A DNA stretch of 64,000 nt from Oscillospiraceae bacterium (lineage in GTDB: Bacteria; Bacillota; Clostridia; Oscillospirales; Ruminococcaceae), in contig JAISLD010000008.1 of NCBI GenBank assembly GCA_031260665.1, positions 37,196 to 101,195 on the forward strand, written 5' to 3'. Made by a program: the position numbers and the translations under genes. Positions 4,662 through 61,721 of the stretch are shown here, piece by piece (the stretch's first letter is position 1; every line of letters starts with the position of its first letter). The notes below the pieces were generated by a model. The model ran no database searches and was not told the DNA's origin. It saw only the letters and a program-made list of their open reading frames with translations.

Positions 4662-4753
4662 AACGCTACCTCGTAAGCCTACTTAATGCTGATTGAATAA
4701 TTATTTTGTGTTCTTCCCCCCACAAAAGGGGGAGAACACAGCTTTTAATTGTT

Positions 4754-4926
4754 TATAGTAGGTTAAATTAAAAACGCTAAAGCGTTTTTGCAGTCGCTTT
4801 TAGCGACTGCCGCGCCTACGGCGCGGATTTACCCGTCCTGATACGCCAGTGCGCGGCAAAGCCGCGCCGCCGCTTCGCGGCGAAAACTCAAAACACTTTA
4901 GTGTTTTGAGTTTAATTGGCTATATA
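4754..4926. repeat. Family A modular multi-hairpin element
   Basis: TATAGTAGGTTAAAT...TTTAATTGGCTATATA enclosing six hairpins and the spacer complementary to GGCGTATCAGGACGG. Confidence 0.9.
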
Positions 4927-5240
4927 ATATATTCAAGCAAAAGTTCGTCCGATAACTGCGGACGCTTGTTTGTTGATGATTGAAACACATATCCCGACGG
5001 TCATACCCCTCGGGTTGGTGCCCGACAGGTAATAAGCTGATTGCCCATACGCCCCAACTTAAAAAATACTTTGTATTTTTTAAGTTAAACGGCTATATCA
5101 ACGCGTCGCCTTTCACCTTATTGTCTCTCGGGCACCAAGCTTTACAAGTATTATCAAATATGTTATAATTAAAATGTATACTTTGACGCGGACAACGCGT
5201 CATATACTAAACACATAGGTATACAAAGAAAGGAAACGGT

Positions 5241-9383: not shown

Positions 9384-11246
9384 TTGTTGAGGAAAACAAT
9401 GCTTGACTATGATGTGGTGATTATCGGTGCGGGGCACGCGGGTTGCGAGGCGGCGCTTGCGGCGGCACGATTAGGCGTGAGAACCGCGGTGTTCTGCTTG
9501 TCGCTTGACACGATTGCCAATATGCCGTGCAACCCGTGTATCGGCGGCAGTGCCAAGGGGCAACTGGTCGGTGAGATTGACGCGTTAGGCGGTGAAATGG
9601 GCAAAGCGGCCGACGAAACCGCGATACAGTTTCGTACGCTCAATATGGGCAAAGGCGCGGCGGCACGGTCGCTTCGCACGCAAAACGACCGCGCCGCGTA
9701 TCACGCGAGAATGAAACGGGCACTTGAACAAACCGCGAACTTGTTTATCCTGCAAGACGAAGTGACGGAGATTCTCACGGTTGACGGAGCGGCGACAGGC
9801 GTCAAGACGCGAAATGGGCTGACCTATAACGCGAATGCGGTTGTTATAACCACGGGAACTTATCTCGGCGGCACAATCCATATCGGTGAAACGTCTTACT
9901 TGTCGGGGGCTGACGGTGTGAACGCGGCGACTGAACTGACGCGTTCGCTTCAACGGCTTGGCATACCGACAAAGCGATTCAAGACGGGGACGCCTGCGCG
10001 TGTGCATAGACGGTCGATTGATTTCTCTCTGCTTCAAGAGCAAGCGGGAGATGAATACCCCACGGCGTTCTCGTTCGACAATCGGCGTGAGCTTGTAAAC
10101 AAAACCGTTTGCCACATAACATATACAAATGAAAAAACGCATAAAGTGATATTGGCGAACCTCGACCGTTCGCCGCTCTATTCGGGGCGAATTGTCGGCA
10201 CAGGACCGCGTTACTGCCCGTCTATCGAGGACAAGGTGGTGCGGTTTGCCGATAAAGAACGGCACCAGTTTTTCATCGAGCCAACGGGACTCGACACCGA
10301 CGAGATGTATCTGCAAGGTATGTCGTCGTCGCTCCCTCCCGATGTGCAAGACGCGTTTCTTCGTACAATCAAAGGGCTTGAACGCGTCGAGATTATGCGG
10401 CACGCCTATGCAATCGAGTACGACTGCATTGACCCGACAAGCTTGAAGAACACGCTGATGTTTCGGGACATACGCGGCTTGTTCTCAGCGGGGCAGAGCA
10501 ACGGCACAAGCGGATACGAAGAAGCGGCGGCGCAAGGGCTTGTCGCGGGGGTCAACGCCGCGAAGTATGTTCAGCATCGCGATATGCTTGTGCTGACGCG
10601 GGACAATTCGTACATCGGGGTTATGCTGGACGACTTGACAGTGAAAGGCGCACCCGAACCTTATCGTATGATGACGGCACGCGCCGAGTTTCGGCTGTTG
10701 CTGCGTCAAGACAACGCGCCCGAACGACTCTGCGGAACAGGGCACGACATTGGCTTGCTTTCAGACGAGAGATTCGCGGCATATCTTGCGAGAGAACGAG
10801 CTGTTGCGGACGAGCTTGAACGAACGAAGGAGGTGGTTATTAACCCAAGCGAGGAGCTGAACAAGCAACTTGTTCCACGTGGAACATCGCCACTTAACGC
10901 CCCTGCAACGCTGTTTGACTTGCTGAAACGACCGCAGATAGATTACGATTTGCTTCAGCGGTTCGATTCGAGGTGCGGCAAGGCGACGCGGCTTGTTTGT
11001 AAACGTGTGGAGATTGAAATCAAGTACGAGGGGTATATCAAGTTGCAGCAACAGGAAGCGGAGCGGTTTGTGAAGTTGGAGAAGCGGAAGTTGCCGATTG
11101 ACGTGGACTATTTGTCAACCGAGGGTTTGCGACTTGAGGCGCGTCGGGTGCTGGACGAGTTTCGACCTGAAACCGTGGGGGTTGCGGCACGGCTGCCCGG
11201 CGTGAACCCTGCTGATGTTAATATACTTCTACTGCTCGCGAGATGA
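9384..11246 (+). CDS. mnmG: tRNA uridine-5-carboxymethylaminomethyl modification enzyme MnmG/GidA
   Basis: VVIIGAGHAGCEAALAAARLG, NPCIGGSAKGQLV, AGQSNGTSGYEEAAAQGL. Confidence 0.97.
   Translation: MLRKTMLDYDVVIIGAGHAGCEAALAAARLGVRTAVFCLSLDTIANMPCNPCIGGSAKGQLVGEIDALGGEMGKAADETAIQFRTLNMGKGAAARSLRTQNDRAAYHARMKRALEQTANLFILQDEVTEILTVDGAATGVKTRNGLTYNANAVVITTGTYLGGTIHIGETSYLSGADGVNAATELTRSLQRLGIPTKRFKTGTPARVHRRSIDFSLLQEQAGDEYPTAFSFDNRRELVNKTVCHITYTNEKTHKVILANLDRSPLYSGRIVGTGPRYCPSIEDKVVRFADKERHQFFIEPTGLDTDEMYLQGMSSSLPPDVQDAFLRTIKGLERVEIMRHAYAIEYDCIDPTSLKNTLMFRDIRGLFSAGQSNGTSGYEEAAAQGLVAGVNAAKYVQHRDMLVLTRDNSYIGVMLDDLTVKGAPEPYRMMTARAEFRLLLRQDNAPERLCGTGHDIGLLSDERFAAYLARERAVADELERTKEVVINPSEELNKQLVPRGTSPLNAPATLFDLLKRPQIDYDLLQRFDSRCGKATRLVCKRVEIEIKYEGYIKLQQQEAERFVKLEKRKLPIDVDYLSTEGLRLEARRVLDEFRPETVGVAARLPGVNPADVNILLLLAR
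10871..10886. promoter_or_regulatory. parS-like site inside mnmG
   Basis: Perfect 16-bp palindrome TGTTCCACGTGGAACA. Confidence 0.85.
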
Positions 11247-11250
11247 CCGT

Positions 11251-11344
11251 GCGCCCGTCCGGCCGCCCCGTCGCGGGCTTCGCCCGCCGGCGCTTCGCGC
11301 CGACCGCGCCTGCGGCGCGGTGACGGGGCGGCTGGACGGAGCGC
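11251..11344. other. GC-rich fully paired four-way-junction structure
   Basis: Outer stem 11255-11272/11322-11339 (extended by 11251-11254/11341-11344), hairpins 11273-11287, 11288-11302, 11303-11321. Confidence 0.9.
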
Positions 11345-11396
11345 GCGGGTATCCCATCGAACCACGCAAAACTTGAAACAAAGAGGCACAACGCAT

Positions 11397-12071
11397 ATGG
11401 AAAACACATTCACCAAAGCAGAGCGCGAAACCTTGTTGCGGCTCACCGACATAATGCTCGAGTATAACAAAAAAGTCAACCTCACGGCGATAACGGAGCG
11501 ACACGAAATCGAAGAAAAGCACTATCTCGACTGCGTAAAAGCCTTGCGTTTAAGCGAAAGCGGCGGTTATGTTCCACGTGGAACATCTGTTGTTGACGTG
11601 GGAAGCGGCGCGGGATTCCCCGGGGTTCTGTGGGGGCTTGTCCGTCCCGACCTGCAAGTCACTCTGCTTGACTCGCTGAAAAAACGCGTCGATTACCTTG
11701 AACATATCAAAGCGGAGTTGTCGCTTGACTATACGGCCACACACGGTCGAAGCGAGGAGCTTTCGCACGCCGCCGAGTATCGCGACAGGTTTGGCGTAGC
11801 CACGGCGCGTGCCGTTGCGAACATGCCCGCTCTCATTGAGCTTTGTTTGCCGCTCGTCAAAGTCGGCGGTTTTTTCATTGCGCTCAAGACCGACAAGTAC
11901 GAGGGCGATATAACGAACGCACTCGGTTCTCTCGGCGGCGAACTTGCTGATGTGATTGACTACAGAGTGGGGGACAACAAGCGGCGTCTTTATGTGATTG
12001 CGAAGAATAAACCGACAGAAAAATCTTTCCCCAGAAAACGCGTGAATATCACCAAAAACCCGATAATTTGA
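11397..12071 (+). CDS. rsmG: 16S rRNA (guanine527-N7)-methyltransferase RsmG/GidB
   Basis: MLEYNKKVNLTAI, DVGSGAGFPGV, TARAVANMPALIEL; downstream of mnmG. Confidence 0.95.
   Translation: MENTFTKAERETLLRLTDIMLEYNKKVNLTAITERHEIEEKHYLDCVKALRLSESGGYVPRGTSVVDVGSGAGFPGVLWGLVRPDLQVTLLDSLKKRVDYLEHIKAELSLDYTATHGRSEELSHAAEYRDRFGVATARAVANMPALIELCLPLVKVGGFFIALKTDKYEGDITNALGSLGGELADVIDYRVGDNKRRLYVIAKNKPTEKSFPRKRVNITKNPII
11570..11585. promoter_or_regulatory. parS-like site inside rsmG
   Basis: Perfect 16-bp palindrome TGTTCCACGTGGAACA. Confidence 0.85.
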
Positions 12072-12216: not shown

Positions 12217-13074
12217 ATGTTTTTCACCAAACCTGTAAGCCCCGCAAGCCCTGTAAGTAATACAGAAACCTATCACGACAAACCCGTGGAACTCGGAAAG
12301 GTGGTGCAGCTTAGCACTGCTGATATCAAGCCGAACCCCGACCAACCGCGCCGCGTGTTCGACGACTATGAGTTGTCGCAACTCGCGGTGAGTATCAGGC
12401 AAAACGGACTTCTGCAACCGATAACCGTGAGAAAAACCGACAGCGGTTACGTTTTGATTAGCGGCGAGCGGCGACTACGCGCGATAAAGCTGCTGAAATC
12501 CGACACGGTCCCCGCGATTGTGATTGAAACAACGGACGAGGAGTCGGCGGTGCTTGCCGCTCTTGAGAATATTCAGCGGGCACAGCTGAACTACATAGAG
12601 GAAGCGCAGGCGTTCAAGCTGCTGATAGACGCGTACAGCTTGACACAGGAGGAGTGCGCCGCCAAGTTGGGGCTGGCGCAGTCCACCGTGGCAAACAAGC
12701 TGAAACTTTTGCGGCTGACCGACGACGAACGAACCCTTGTGCTTGACTATCGCTTGTCGGAGCGGCAAACCCGCGCCATACTTAAGCTGCCGTTTGACAA
12801 ACGAGTCGCCGCAATCGAGCAAATCAGCCGCGACGGACTGAACACACGGCAAACCGACAAGCTGATAGAAGAAATGTTGGTTGACAAGCCGAAGAAGCCG
12901 AGGAAAACCGCTTTCATTGTTCGGCACGTCAGAATGTACGTCAACACATTCGACCAAACGCTTGCCGCAATGAAAGACGCGGGTATCCCGTGTGAAGCGG
13001 AGGTCAGCAAAAGCGAAAAGCTGATTGAATATAAAATCAAAATCCCAATAAACTCGGTGTTTGACGACCTATAG
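12217..13074 (+). CDS. noc: ParB/Noc-family nucleoid occlusion protein
   Basis: NPDQPRRVFD, GERRLRAIKL, LENIQRAQLNYIEEAQAF; HTH segment QSTVANKLKLLRL and C-terminus RKTAFIVRHVRMYVNTFDQTL resemble Noc more than Spo0J. Confidence 0.85.
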   Translation: MFFTKPVSPASPVSNTETYHDKPVELGKVVQLSTADIKPNPDQPRRVFDDYELSQLAVSIRQNGLLQPITVRKTDSGYVLISGERRLRAIKLLKSDTVPAIVIETTDEESAVLAALENIQRAQLNYIEEAQAFKLLIDAYSLTQEECAAKLGLAQSTVANKLKLLRLTDDERTLVLDYRLSERQTRAILKLPFDKRVAAIEQISRDGLNTRQTDKLIEEMLVDKPKKPRKTAFIVRHVRMYVNTFDQTLAAMKDAGIPCEAEVSKSEKLIEYKIKIPINSVFDDL

Positions 13075-14958: not shown

Positions 14959-16284
14959 ATGAAAACAGTCGCCATAGTTGGCAGACCAAACGTCGGGAAA
15001 TCCGCGCTGTTCAACAAGCTGACGGGCATACGCGCCGCAATAGTCGAAGATGTGCCGGGTGTTACGCGTGACAGGCTTTACGGCAAGGTCGAGTGGTGCG
15101 GGCACTCGTTCAACCTGATAGACACAGGCGGAATAGAGCCGCTGTCAAAGGAGATAATCCCTGTTCATATCCGTGAACAGGCGCGCATTGCGATAGACAC
15201 AGCCGACGTTATCATCTTTGTCACGGATATACGTGCGGGGCTTACCACCGAGGACGAAGACGTGGCGAACATTCTTCGCAGAAGCGGCAAGCCTGTTGTG
15301 CTGTGCGTCAACAAAATCGATTCACCAGGCGAGCCGCCCCCCGAGTTATACACGTTCTATAACTTGGGTCTTGACGAGCCGTACCCCGTGTCGTCGGTTC
15401 ACGGCAGCGGCACAGGCGACCTGCTTGACAAAGTGGTGTCGCTCTTTTCCGACGAAGAAACCGAGGTGCTTTACGGCGGCGATACCCTCAAGGTTGCGGT
15501 CATCGGCAGACCGAACGCCGGCAAAAGCTCGCTTGTCAATCATGTGCTCGGTGAGAAACGTCTTATCGTGTCTGACATAGCGGGGACGACAAGGGACGCG
15601 ATAGACACGGCGGTCAAGGTGAACGGGCAAGACTATGTGCTGATAGACACGGCAGGGATACGCCGCAAGTCGCGAGTTGACGACTTAGTTGAAAAGTACA
15701 GCGTGCTTCGTGCTTACACTGCGGTAGAACGCGCCGACGTCTGTGTCATTATGCTTGACGCGGAGCAAGGATTCACCGAGCAGGACAGCAAGATAGCGGG
15801 GTTTGCCCACGAAAAGGGCAAAGCGTCTGTTATCGCGGTGAACAAGTGGGATTTGATTGCCAAGAACGATAAGACAATGCGTGAGTTTCAGCAGAAACTT
15901 GAAAGCGATTTCTCGTTTATGTCGTATGTGCCGTTCGTGTTTATATCGGCGACAACGGGGCAGAGAATCGACAAGCTGTTTGAACTGATAAACCACGCGG
16001 CGGAGCAAAACGCAAGACGAATAACCACGGGACAGCTGAACGACCTGCTTGCGTTCGCGACGGCGCGGGTTCAGCCGCCGACCGACAAGGGGCGCAGACT
16101 GAAGATTTATTATATGACACAAGTGGCAAGCAAGCCGCCCGCGTTTGTCGCGTTTTGCAATCGTGCCGACTTGTTTCACTTTTCATACAGGCGATATATC
16201 GAAAACCAAATTCGCGAGGCGTTCTCGCTGGACAGCACACCGATAACGCTGACCGTGAGAGAACGTGACAGAAACGATGTTTGA
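14959..16284 (+). CDS. der: Ribosome-associated GTPase Der/EngA
   Basis: Two tandem G domains (GRPNVGKSALFNKL, GRPNAGKSSLVNHVL) and KH-like C-terminus. Confidence 0.97.
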   Translation: MKTVAIVGRPNVGKSALFNKLTGIRAAIVEDVPGVTRDRLYGKVEWCGHSFNLIDTGGIEPLSKEIIPVHIREQARIAIDTADVIIFVTDIRAGLTTEDEDVANILRRSGKPVVLCVNKIDSPGEPPPELYTFYNLGLDEPYPVSSVHGSGTGDLLDKVVSLFSDEETEVLYGGDTLKVAVIGRPNAGKSSLVNHVLGEKRLIVSDIAGTTRDAIDTAVKVNGQDYVLIDTAGIRRKSRVDDLVEKYSVLRAYTAVERADVCVIMLDAEQGFTEQDSKIAGFAHEKGKASVIAVNKWDLIAKNDKTMREFQQKLESDFSFMSYVPFVFISATTGQRIDKLFELINHAAEQNARRITTGQLNDLLAFATARVQPPTDKGRRLKIYYMTQVASKPPAFVAFCNRADLFHFSYRRYIENQIREAFSLDSTPITLTVRERDRNDV

Positions 16285-16456
16285 TATAGCCGTTTAACTT
16301 AAAAACACTAAAGTGTTTTTAAGTTTGGGCGCATATGCGCCCCTGCGGCGAAGCCGCGAAACGGCGTATCAGGGCGGTTAAATCCGCTTCTGCGGAGCGG
16401 TAGCCGCCGAAAGCGGCTATAAAAACGCTTAAGCGTTTTTAATTTAACCCACTATA
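16285..16456. repeat. Family A element, opposite orientation to 4754
   Basis: Same six-hairpin order with diverged but self-complementary stems. Confidence 0.9.
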
Positions 16457-16472
16457 TCAGGAGGTTCGCCCA

Positions 16473-25534: not shown

Positions 25535-25665
25535 TAAGCTCACATACCGAAGGTCATACCCCTCGGGGCAGAGGCGGGCGGCCGGAACGACTCGGTCGAC
25601 GCCCTTGCCGCTTCCGCAGGAGCGGAATCCTCGTAAATCAAATTATTTAAGTTGTTAACACTGCA
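25535..25665. repeat. Family B intergenic element
   Basis: CCGAAGGTCATACCCCTCGGGGCAGAGGCGGGCGGCCGGAACGACTCGGTCGACGCCC. Confidence 0.85.
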
Positions 25666-26431: not shown

Positions 26432-26517
26432 CTCGGCATATATCCCGAAGGTCATACACCTCGGGGCAGAGGCGGGCGACCGGAACGACTCGGTCGACGC
26501 CCGACAGGCGATATATA
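26432..26517. repeat. Family B intergenic element
   Basis: CCCGAAGGTCATACACCTCGGGGCAGAGGCGGGCGACCGGAACGACTCGGTCGACGCCC. Confidence 0.85.
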
Positions 26518-26708
26518 CTCCGTAACGGGTTAAACTTTCAGTTTAACTTTCCGCCGTTTCACGGCGTATACTTGGCGTAACAAGCCGCTTCGCGGCTTCG
26601 GCACTTTGCAAGCGCCGAAGCTTAAAAACTCGGTGAGTTTTTAAGCGGTTATTTGAGTTTAACCGGCTATATAGCGTTAATCATAAACTTTATCAACTCG
26701 GAAATAAT

Positions 26709-29766: not shown

Positions 29767-29970
29767 ACGGAGAGGTTCTTTTTGCTTGTTAAATAACGTA
29801 TCGCATTAACTTAATTGCCGGTCCGGCACGGACGGAGAGGTTCTTTTTGCTTGTTAAATAACGTATCGCATTAACTTAATTGCCGGTCCGGCACGGACGG
29901 AGAGGTTCTTGTTTTGTCTGATAACGTATCGCATTAACGTAATTGCCGGTCCGGCACGGACGGAGAGGTT
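29767..29970 (+). repeat. Three-copy ~65-bp tandem repeat starting inside the rsgA terminator
   Basis: GGAGAGGTT...GCCGGTCCGGCACGGAC units at 29769, 29834, 29899, with a final GGAGAGG at 29962. Confidence 0.95.
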
Positions 29971-30699: not shown

Positions 30700-30734
30700 A
30701 TCGTGCCCCTTTCAAGTAAGTGTCGCCTCTATTC

Positions 30735-30868
30735 AAGCGCAACACCGAAGGTCATACCCCTCGGGGCACAGGCGGGCGACCGGAACGACTCAGTCGATGC
30801 CCTTGCCGCTCCCGCAAGAGCGGAATCTCTGCGCAACGAATGGTTTAAGTTGCTAACGATGATTATAT
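30735..30868. repeat. Family B intergenic element
   Basis: CCGAAGGTCATACCCCTCGGGGCACAGGCGGGCGACCGGAACGACTCAGTCGATGCCC. Confidence 0.85.
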
Positions 30869-30902
30869 AGCACCACCTCTATTCTATTCAAGAGCAAAAC
30901 AA

Positions 30903-31058
30903 AAAACCTCTCCGTCCGTGCCGGACCGGCAATTAAGTTAATGCGATACGTTATTTAACAAGCAAAAAGAACCTCTCCGTCCGTGCCGGACCGGCAATTA
31001 AGTTAATGCGATACGTTATCAAACAAAACAAAAACCTCTCCGTTTGGGAGAGGTTCTT
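30903..31058 (-). repeat. Second 65-bp terminator repeat array, inverted relative to 29767-29970
   Basis: CCTCTCCGTCCGTGCCGGACCGGCAATTAAGTTAATGCGATACGTTAT in two copies plus the terminator hairpin. Confidence 0.95.
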
Positions 31059-34847: not shown

Positions 34848-34900
34848 TTATCAATCCCCCTCTCGCACAACGGGCTATCCGTTGTACACAAATTTATGAA

Positions 34901-35210
34901 CTCGTTTCTAATTATAACATATCGCAGATATGTTATAATTGCGCATCAGAGGGCGGTTGCCCCAACGGGGCGAGCCCGTGCGCAATATAATAAGCGCTCG
35001 TTTCTAATTATAACATATCGCAGATATGTTATAATTGCGCATCAGAGGGCGGTTGCCCCAACGGGGCGAGCCCGTGCGCAATATAATAAGCACTCGTTTC
35101 TAATTATAACATATCGCAGATGTGTTATAATTGCGCATCAGAGGGCAGTTGCCCCAACGGGGCGAGCCCGTGCGCAATATAATAAGCACTCGTTTTTAAT
35201 TATAACATTA
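34901..35210. repeat. 96-bp tandem repeat, three full copies and a partial fourth
   Basis: Exact period: CTCGTTTCTA at 34901, 34997, 35093; CTCGTTTTTA at 35189. Confidence 0.97.
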
Positions 35211-44538: not shown

Positions 44539-44703
44539 TTCGGCACCGACTGCATCGGGGGCAATAAACTGCGTTTGGCCATACTGACAAGTTGTCGCGT
44601 TAGCTTATTGTGCGTTCGGCACCGACTGCGTCGGGGGGCAATAAACTGCGTTTGGCCATACTGACAAGTTGTCGCGTTAGCTTATTGCGCGTTCGGCACC
44701 GAC
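44539..44703. repeat. 76/77-bp tandem repeat between convergent queA and hsp20
   Basis: TTCGGCACCGAC at 44539, 44615, 44692 with conserved interior. Confidence 0.95.
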
Positions 44704-45138
44704 TCAGTCTATCAGTATATCTTTGCTTGTGATTTCTTTCTTCAGCTTCGGGATAGTCACGGTCAGTATGCCGTCGGTCAGCTTTGCCTTAACGCCGCTC
44801 TCCGCCGCTTCGGGGAGATGAACCCGACGTATCATCTCGCTGCAGTGACGCTCACGGTGAACATAGCCGTTCTCGCTTGTGTCGCTCTCGGCTTCACGGT
44901 GCGCTGTTATCGTCAACGTGCCGCTGTCAAGCGAGAGTTTGACTTCGCTTTTCTTGATACCCGGGAGTTCCGCTTCAACGCCGTATTCGTCGTCGTTCTC
45001 TTTCAAGTCAAGCTTGAAACCCTCGATACGTGTGGCTTCGCCGCCAAGGAAGTCGTCGAGTAGTCCGTAGAAGCCCTCAAAGCCCGTGGGATACGCTTTC
45101 CTGCCGAAAGGTGTTTGTGAAGTGATTGCTGTTCTCAT
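44704..45138 (-). CDS. Hsp20/alpha-crystallin family small heat-shock protein
   Basis: Alpha-crystallin pattern VEAELPGIKKSEVKLSLDSGTLTITAHRE ... GVKAKLTDGILTVTIPK. Confidence 0.93.
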   Translation of the reverse strand: MRTAITSQTPFGRKAYPTGFEGFYGLLDDFLGGEATRIEGFKLDLKENDDEYGVEAELPGIKKSEVKLSLDSGTLTITAHREAESDTSENGYVHRERHCSEMIRRVHLPEAAESGVKAKLTDGILTVTIPKLKKEITSKDILID

Positions 45139-60795: not shown

Positions 60796-60930
60796 ATAAT
60801 GTTAATGTCCTTAAATGATTATATCGCCGATTAACTAATCGCTTAGTGTTCTCTATTATAGTTAATCGGTATACTCTTTCAGTTTAACTCTCCGCCGTTT
60901 CACGGCGGTTGGCGTAACAACGTATCCCAT

Positions 60931-61103
60931 TATAGTAGGTTAAATTAAAAACGCTAAAGCGTTTTTATAGCCGCTTTCAGCGGCTATCGCTCCGCAGGAG
61001 CGGATTTAACCGTCCTGATACGCCAGTGCGCGGCAAAGCCGCGCCGCCGCTTCGCGGCGAAAATTCAAAACACTTTAGTGTTTTGAATTTAACTGGCTAT
61101 ATA
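60931..61103. repeat. Family A element
   Basis: Near-full match to 4754-4926 with altered d/e stems. Confidence 0.92.
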
Positions 61104-61185
61104 ACAACGCCTCGGTTGCCGACATTAGGTATTCCCCCACCCGAAGGCGGGGGAATACCGATAATAACCTATTCGCTCAGCGGTC

Positions 61186-61319
61186 ATAGTAGGTTAAATC
61201 AAAAACGCTAACGCGTTTTTGATTTAACCATCCTGATACGCCAGTGCGCGGCAAAGCCGCACCGCCGCTTCGCGGCGAAAATTCAAAACACTTTAGTGTT
61301 TTGAGTTTAACTGGCTATA
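61186..61319. repeat. Family A element lacking the d and e hairpins
   Basis: Same ends and spacer, two hairpins absent. Confidence 0.92.
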
Positions 61320-61346
61320 CTTAAGCACACAGAAAGGAGAATTAAA

Positions 61347-61556: not shown

Positions 61557-61721
61557 CACAACAAAAGCCCTACATCGGGCTTTTGCTTGACAATATATAC
61601 CAATGTCAACAACTCAACTTTGCGCGGGTCGGTGCCCGACAGGCAATAAGGCCTTCCGGTCGCCCGCCTGCGCCCCGAGTTAGGATATATTCCATTAGTT
61701 TATTGTGTGTCCGGCACAGAC

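Follow-up and report, generated by a model that had tools for sequence, protein, structure and literature searches.

The closed four-way junction between mnmG and rsmG is one copy of a dispersed, lineage-restricted, intergenic repeat, whose shape is conserved and whose pairing is kept while its stems change. We favor, with moderate confidence, the view that this clover is a G+C-rich, MITE-like palindromic repeat which spread as DNA and whose architecture is an outer stem enclosing exactly three abutting hairpins. The initial annotation had offered three guesses, a cruciform-prone mobile repeat, an mRNA processing element and a protein-binding site between two parS-like sites, and it is the first that three dispersed copies, compensated stems and a genome full of clovers favor. 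The genome searched comprises 1.46 Mb in 48 contigs; the window is the whole stretch of 64,000 nucleotides that was analyzed.

The clover behind mnmG

Features of the clover, and of related elements in the window, are listed in Table 1. The names mnmG and rsmG come from the initial annotation and from translations, with no family search behind them. An outer stem of 18 bp with one G-U pair, as well as three abutting hairpins with no unpaired junction nucleotides, had been described previously, and both the fold and a strict shape scan recovered them. The same description extended the outer stem by GCGC/GCGC across a single bulge; the bulge (A 11340) is there, but the extension is really 8 pairs long, CCGTGCGC with GCGCGCGG. 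The outer stem thus totals 26 bp (18 bp and 8 bp across the bulge) with two G-T pairs, and because of the longer extension the clover directly adjoins the mnmG stop codon (TGA, 11244-11246), with no base between them.

RNA folding confirmed the clover, with a minimum free energy of -100.4 kcal/mol against -66.7 +/- 3.8 kcal/mol for 200 dinucleotide shuffles (z -8.96, 0/200 as good). The opposite strand gave -92.2 kcal/mol (z -7.6), and DNA parameters returned the same clover fold on both strands. After shuffling of the window (five shuffles), the strict scan found no three-hairpin clover. The element had been called far more GC-rich than its surroundings, and G+C is indeed 86% in 11251-11344 compared with 52% in the window. 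An Rfam search with the clover yielded nothing at the gathering score, and the weak sub-threshold matches were taken as chance.

Table 1. Clover features and double-clover elements in the window
Feature	Position	Strand	Description
Class A clover, whole closed four-way junction	11247-11348		Fold, shape scan, DNA parameters
Outer stem, outer part, left arm	11247-11254	+	8 bp with 11341-11348; locus-specific, absent from the other two copies
Outer stem, left arm	11255-11272	+	18 bp with 11322-11339; contains shared inverted end TCCGGCCGCCCCG at 11258-11270
Hairpin 1	11273-11287	+	6 bp, loop TTC; GCGGGC-TTC-GCCCGC
Hairpin 2	11288-11302	+	6 bp, loop TTC; CGGCGC-TTC-GCGCCG
Hairpin 3	11303-11321	+	8 bp, loop TGC; ACCGCGCC-TGC-GGCGCGGT; best conserved hairpin among the three copies
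Outer stem, right arm	11322-11339	+	Fold, shape scan
Outer stem, outer part, right arm	11341-11348	+	Beyond bulged A at 11340
B+C double clover	4753-4927	+	Same architecture as class A, unrelated sequence; B half slightly decayed
B+C double clover	16284-16457	-	Clovers 16289-16365 and 16376-16449
B+C double clover	60930-61104	+	Clovers 60938-61011 and 61022-61097
C-type clover of a further copy (61148-61322)	61240-61315	+	Shape scan
C-type clover, copy cut by contig end	63888-63963	-	Shape scan

The likely start of rsmG is the ATG at 11397 (MENTFTKAE), co-directional with mnmG. A position directly behind a stop codon and extreme stability would suit an unusual transcription terminator for mnmG. 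However, no T-tract follows the stem, a terminator scan made no call there, in agreement with the earlier view that this is not a standard terminator, and co-directional rsmG follows some 50 bp on; we therefore regard termination as quite improbable. As a separate observation, terminator-like hairpins at many gene ends of this genome (e.g. L007:9547, L008, L015, L161 and L173:13644) are built on one recurrent stem, (A)ACCTCTCC...GGAGAGGT(T), and give the impression of a terminator family that has spread.

The two parS-like sites around the clover are real and exact: the 16-mer TGTTCCACGTGGAACA occurs at 10871-10886 in mnmG and at 11570-11585 in rsmG (0.01 expected). The clover, flanked by them at distances of 370 and 220 bp and lying upstream of a ParB-like gene at 12217, might accordingly be a site of a ParB/parS centromere. 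However, the flanks of the two further class A copies, taken to about 1.5 kb in both directions, contain no exact parS 16-mer, and the rsmG parS is present in many relatives that have no clover. Thus the suggested protein-binding site between the parS sites did not hold up, a centromere role is extremely unlikely, and the parS link is incidental.

Class A copies and the clover shape

Three copies, all of them three-hairpin clovers, make up class A: the one behind mnmG, C42:58491-58593 and C46:9142-9220. A genome-wide search with the outer-stem core pattern matched these three copies plus four unrelated places. Class A is thus short, non-coding, dispersed and situated at unrelated intergenic loci, as looked for in a MITE. 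Each copy begins no more than ~15 nt from a stop codon, between co-directional genes (for the C42 and C46 copies, the downstream neighbor was read off the sequence), and orientation with respect to the upstream gene varies among the three. It had been reasoned beforehand that substitutions breaking the stems without compensation would speak against the structure; the stems are kept and their changes compensated, which favors it. In an imperfect alignment of the three copies, 8/35 core pairs are changed on both sides yet still paired, a count that is likely too low since the alignment displaces hairpin 1 of the C46 copy by one base.

Class A appears restricted to this lineage. It was absent from 59 relatives searched by BLAST and from 118 searched with a covariance model, a search that the initial annotation had proposed, and those mnmG-rsmG gaps of relatives where the junction is readable hold no clover. 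The RsmG proteins of relatives are at most ~60% identical, so that no empty site can be aligned at the nucleotide level, and no target duplication is visible in the class A flanks. Matches to the core pattern in named genomes, a search that may not include records of the window's own genome, numbered 12 and were taken as chance; none was a clover by the strict scan, and most came from organisms which we presume to be G+C-rich.

The clover shape itself is far more widespread than class A. The strict scan, which required abutting hairpins (each stem 5 bp or longer) enclosed by an outer stem of 6 bp or longer, covered 780 kb (54% of the genome) and found 36 three-hairpin and no four-hairpin clovers, compared with none of either kind in 1.04 Mb of shuffled sequence. 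Two-hairpin forms were near background (22 in the scanned 780 kb versus 18 in shuffles). Most of the scanned clovers belong to families unrelated in sequence to class A, namely B (outer stem GGTTAAAT), C (GCCAGT or GCCGTTT) and D (GCGTAAC). Nearly all clovers of the genome are intergenic, and those outside class A lie mostly further from genes and in both orientations. Since unrelated families in one genome fold alike, it is the shape, not the sequence, that seems to be kept. A strict scan of ~831 kb of relatives gave four matches, mostly simple repeats and none resembling these families.

B and C form a tandem pair separated by ~10 bases; the resulting element of ~170 bp is present in ~40 places, often at contig ends. 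In the listed copies it ends in TATAG...CTATA with TA on either side, the kind of ends sought for a MITE. In the congeners G012 and G069, BLAST alignments to B+C are confined mainly to its outer 38 bases. The interior of one G012 copy forms two three-hairpin clovers whose stems differ for the most part, and the copies in G069 look partly decayed.

Several other repeats were observed in the window. Another structured element, whose core is CCGAAGGTCATACCCCTCGGGGC...GGCGGGCGACCGGAACGACTCGGTCGACGCCC, recurs at 25536-25659, 26434-26557 and 30734-30857, with an inverted part-copy at 61649-61679, and occurs also at L162:8409-8538 and near position 1619 of G000:C17; several copies sit inside a long outer stem, and comparison with Rfam gave no convincing match. 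Tandem 65-bp repeats at 29767-29959 face an inverted set at 30901-31033 across a segment of ~1 kb, the arms being 94% complementary. Three tandem 96-bp repeats at 34872-35208 each contain the palindrome AATTATAACATATCGCAGATATGTTATAATT, and tandem 77-bp repeats at 44557-44709, behind a gene end, carry many small inverted repeats.

Upkeep of the pairing and mode of spread

The clover is probably co-transcribed between mnmG and rsmG, and the question arises whether its pairing is maintained in RNA or in DNA. On the RNA side, the clover in the mnmG-rsmG transcript could block 3' exonucleases, be cut by RNase III or uncouple rsmG, with selection acting on the RNA; REP, NEMIS and ERIC elements are reported to act likewise on mRNA elsewhere. 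The place of all three class A copies within reach of a stop codon and between co-directional genes also fits such a role, as does the extreme stability of the fold. In addition, there is a precedent for RNase III cutting MITE ends in mRNA (PMC10969869). However, the neighboring genes differ among the copies, and the readable mnmG-rsmG gaps of relatives are without a clover. Orientation varies, few G-U pairs occur, the other strand folds equally well, and most other clovers, in either orientation, are further from genes. We consider an mRNA element unlikely on balance; since the clover is probably co-transcribed, a role in mRNA processing may be a side effect.

Several features point to DNA instead. 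Template switching in replication is described as leaving paired changes, stem extension and inverted loops (PMC8794818). Among the clovers of the shape scan, G-T pairs account for 9/1167, although this figure is an underestimate because the scan trims G-T at helix ends. In the aligned double clovers, the changed cells comprise 41 compensated Watson-Crick, 14 G-T and 27 mismatched ones. Two whole hairpins are inverted with the stem unchanged (CGCTTTTAGCG/CGCTAAAAGCG and CGCCTACGGCG/CGCCGTAGGCG). The inverted loops, the very few G-T pairs and the locus-specific extension of the stem therefore suggest that pairing of these palindromic repeats is probably kept by template switching in replication.

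The ends of class A bear on how it moved. A 13-bp inverted end, TCCGGCCGCCCCG, is common to two copies and shorter in the third, and pairing goes on beyond it: the sequence that the first two copies have in common ends at TCCGGCCGCCCCG, while the stem continues outside in 3/3 copies with locus-specific sequence. A simple MITE would not run past its shared inverted end into locus-specific palindromes, and this counts against the simplest form of the reading that we favor. A serious alternative, albeit one to which we assign a low probability, is that a core with 13-bp ends targets DNA hairpins behind stop codons, so that the locus-specific outer stem would be the old target palindrome. The sharp ends of the core, and flanks that pair in every copy with different sequence, are consistent with such insertion into ready-made palindromes. 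Hairpins behind stop codons are also common here (106/615 genes versus 9 in shuffles), and YPAL is reported to insert at or beside dyad symmetry (PMC2229807). However, if the core were taken out, what remained would be palindromes with little or no loop, whereas real 3' hairpins in this genome have loops, and only 15 places in 780 kb have arms of at least 10 bp around a loop of 0-1.

If the clover is instead a repeat that spread as DNA, its copies would have arisen by transposition-like insertion through a trans-acting enzyme, one of them landing behind the mnmG stop codon. Hairpin-primed template switching in replication may then have made or mended the near-perfect Watson-Crick pairing, and the same process could have extended the outer stem into the flank of each locus. 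Between mnmG and rsmG the clover would be largely passive, influencing the operon mRNA locally if at all. A more speculative and decidedly doubtful possibility is that the folded four-way junction itself is the substrate, and that an enzyme of this lineage copies or moves three-hairpin clovers by junction shape, in the manner of a Holliday-junction enzyme. Recognition of the junction shape would explain why unrelated families share that shape and why stems vary while remaining paired.

Candidates for a mobilizing enzyme were sought in the genome. Y1 transposase (PF01797) gave no match, whereas controls matched, so that the enzyme looked for in REP/REPIN systems was not found here; DDE_3 transposase likewise gave no match. 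An IS110-type candidate was set aside, as it was a sub-threshold match only, in a 1416-aa open reading frame, with no tie to the clovers. This frame, at L182 (G000:C29:17438-17674, where the sub-threshold match is IS110/RuvC-like), is by its size perhaps Cas9. A reverse transcriptase was also considered and rejected, again with no tie to the clovers. Its gene, at L183 (G000:C30, ~15060-15554), lies beside a formylglycine-enzyme/C-type-lectin-like protein and phage-like genes, and the arrangement resembles a diversity-generating retroelement within a prophage-like region.

Comparison with known systems

The RUP, Correia/NEMIS and ERIC MITEs (PMC2229807, PMC10969869) resemble the clover repeat in being short, non-coding, dispersed and intergenic, with inverted ends and strong folding, and RUP has TA at both ends, as does B+C. 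They are, however, described as long simple stem-loops, whereas the clover unit is a closed three-hairpin junction, and class A differs from them further in being G+C-rich and without TA ends or a visible target duplication. REP, BIME and REPIN sequences with their RAYT (Y1) enzymes (PMC2817692, PMC3116915, PMC8266576) are, like class A, G+C-rich extragenic palindromes often located behind genes. Nevertheless, REPs are single imperfect hairpins of 20-40 bp, present in high copy and served by a Y1 transposase, whereas class A is a clover of ~80-100 bp in three copies in a genome without a Y1 match.

YPAL/RU-2 of Yersinia (PMC2229807) shares with class A a composition that is not A+T-rich, the lack of TA ends and, reportedly, a location at or beside dyad symmetry. 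It is ~168 bp long with internal inverted repeats, and the text consulted mentions no three-hairpin junction. The two arms and linker of Caulobacter CIR (PMC2229807) recall the B+C double clover, but each CIR arm is a long inverted repeat carrying a GANTC motif and not a clover. Bacteria frequently carry short palindromic repeats, which in the literature searched are described as simple stem-loops or pairs of them. No paper describing a three-hairpin clover repeat was found in that search, whose reach excluded most subscription journals.

The clover repeat is thus best read as a variant of bacterial MITEs and palindromic repeats, distinguished by unrelated families that adopt one closed three-hairpin shape. 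The turnover of stems with pairing kept in these families suggests that the shape is what is propagated. Such a system lends itself to distinguishing hairpin upkeep at the DNA level, by template switching, from RNA-level selection, as well as to the search for a junction-recognizing mobilizing enzyme.
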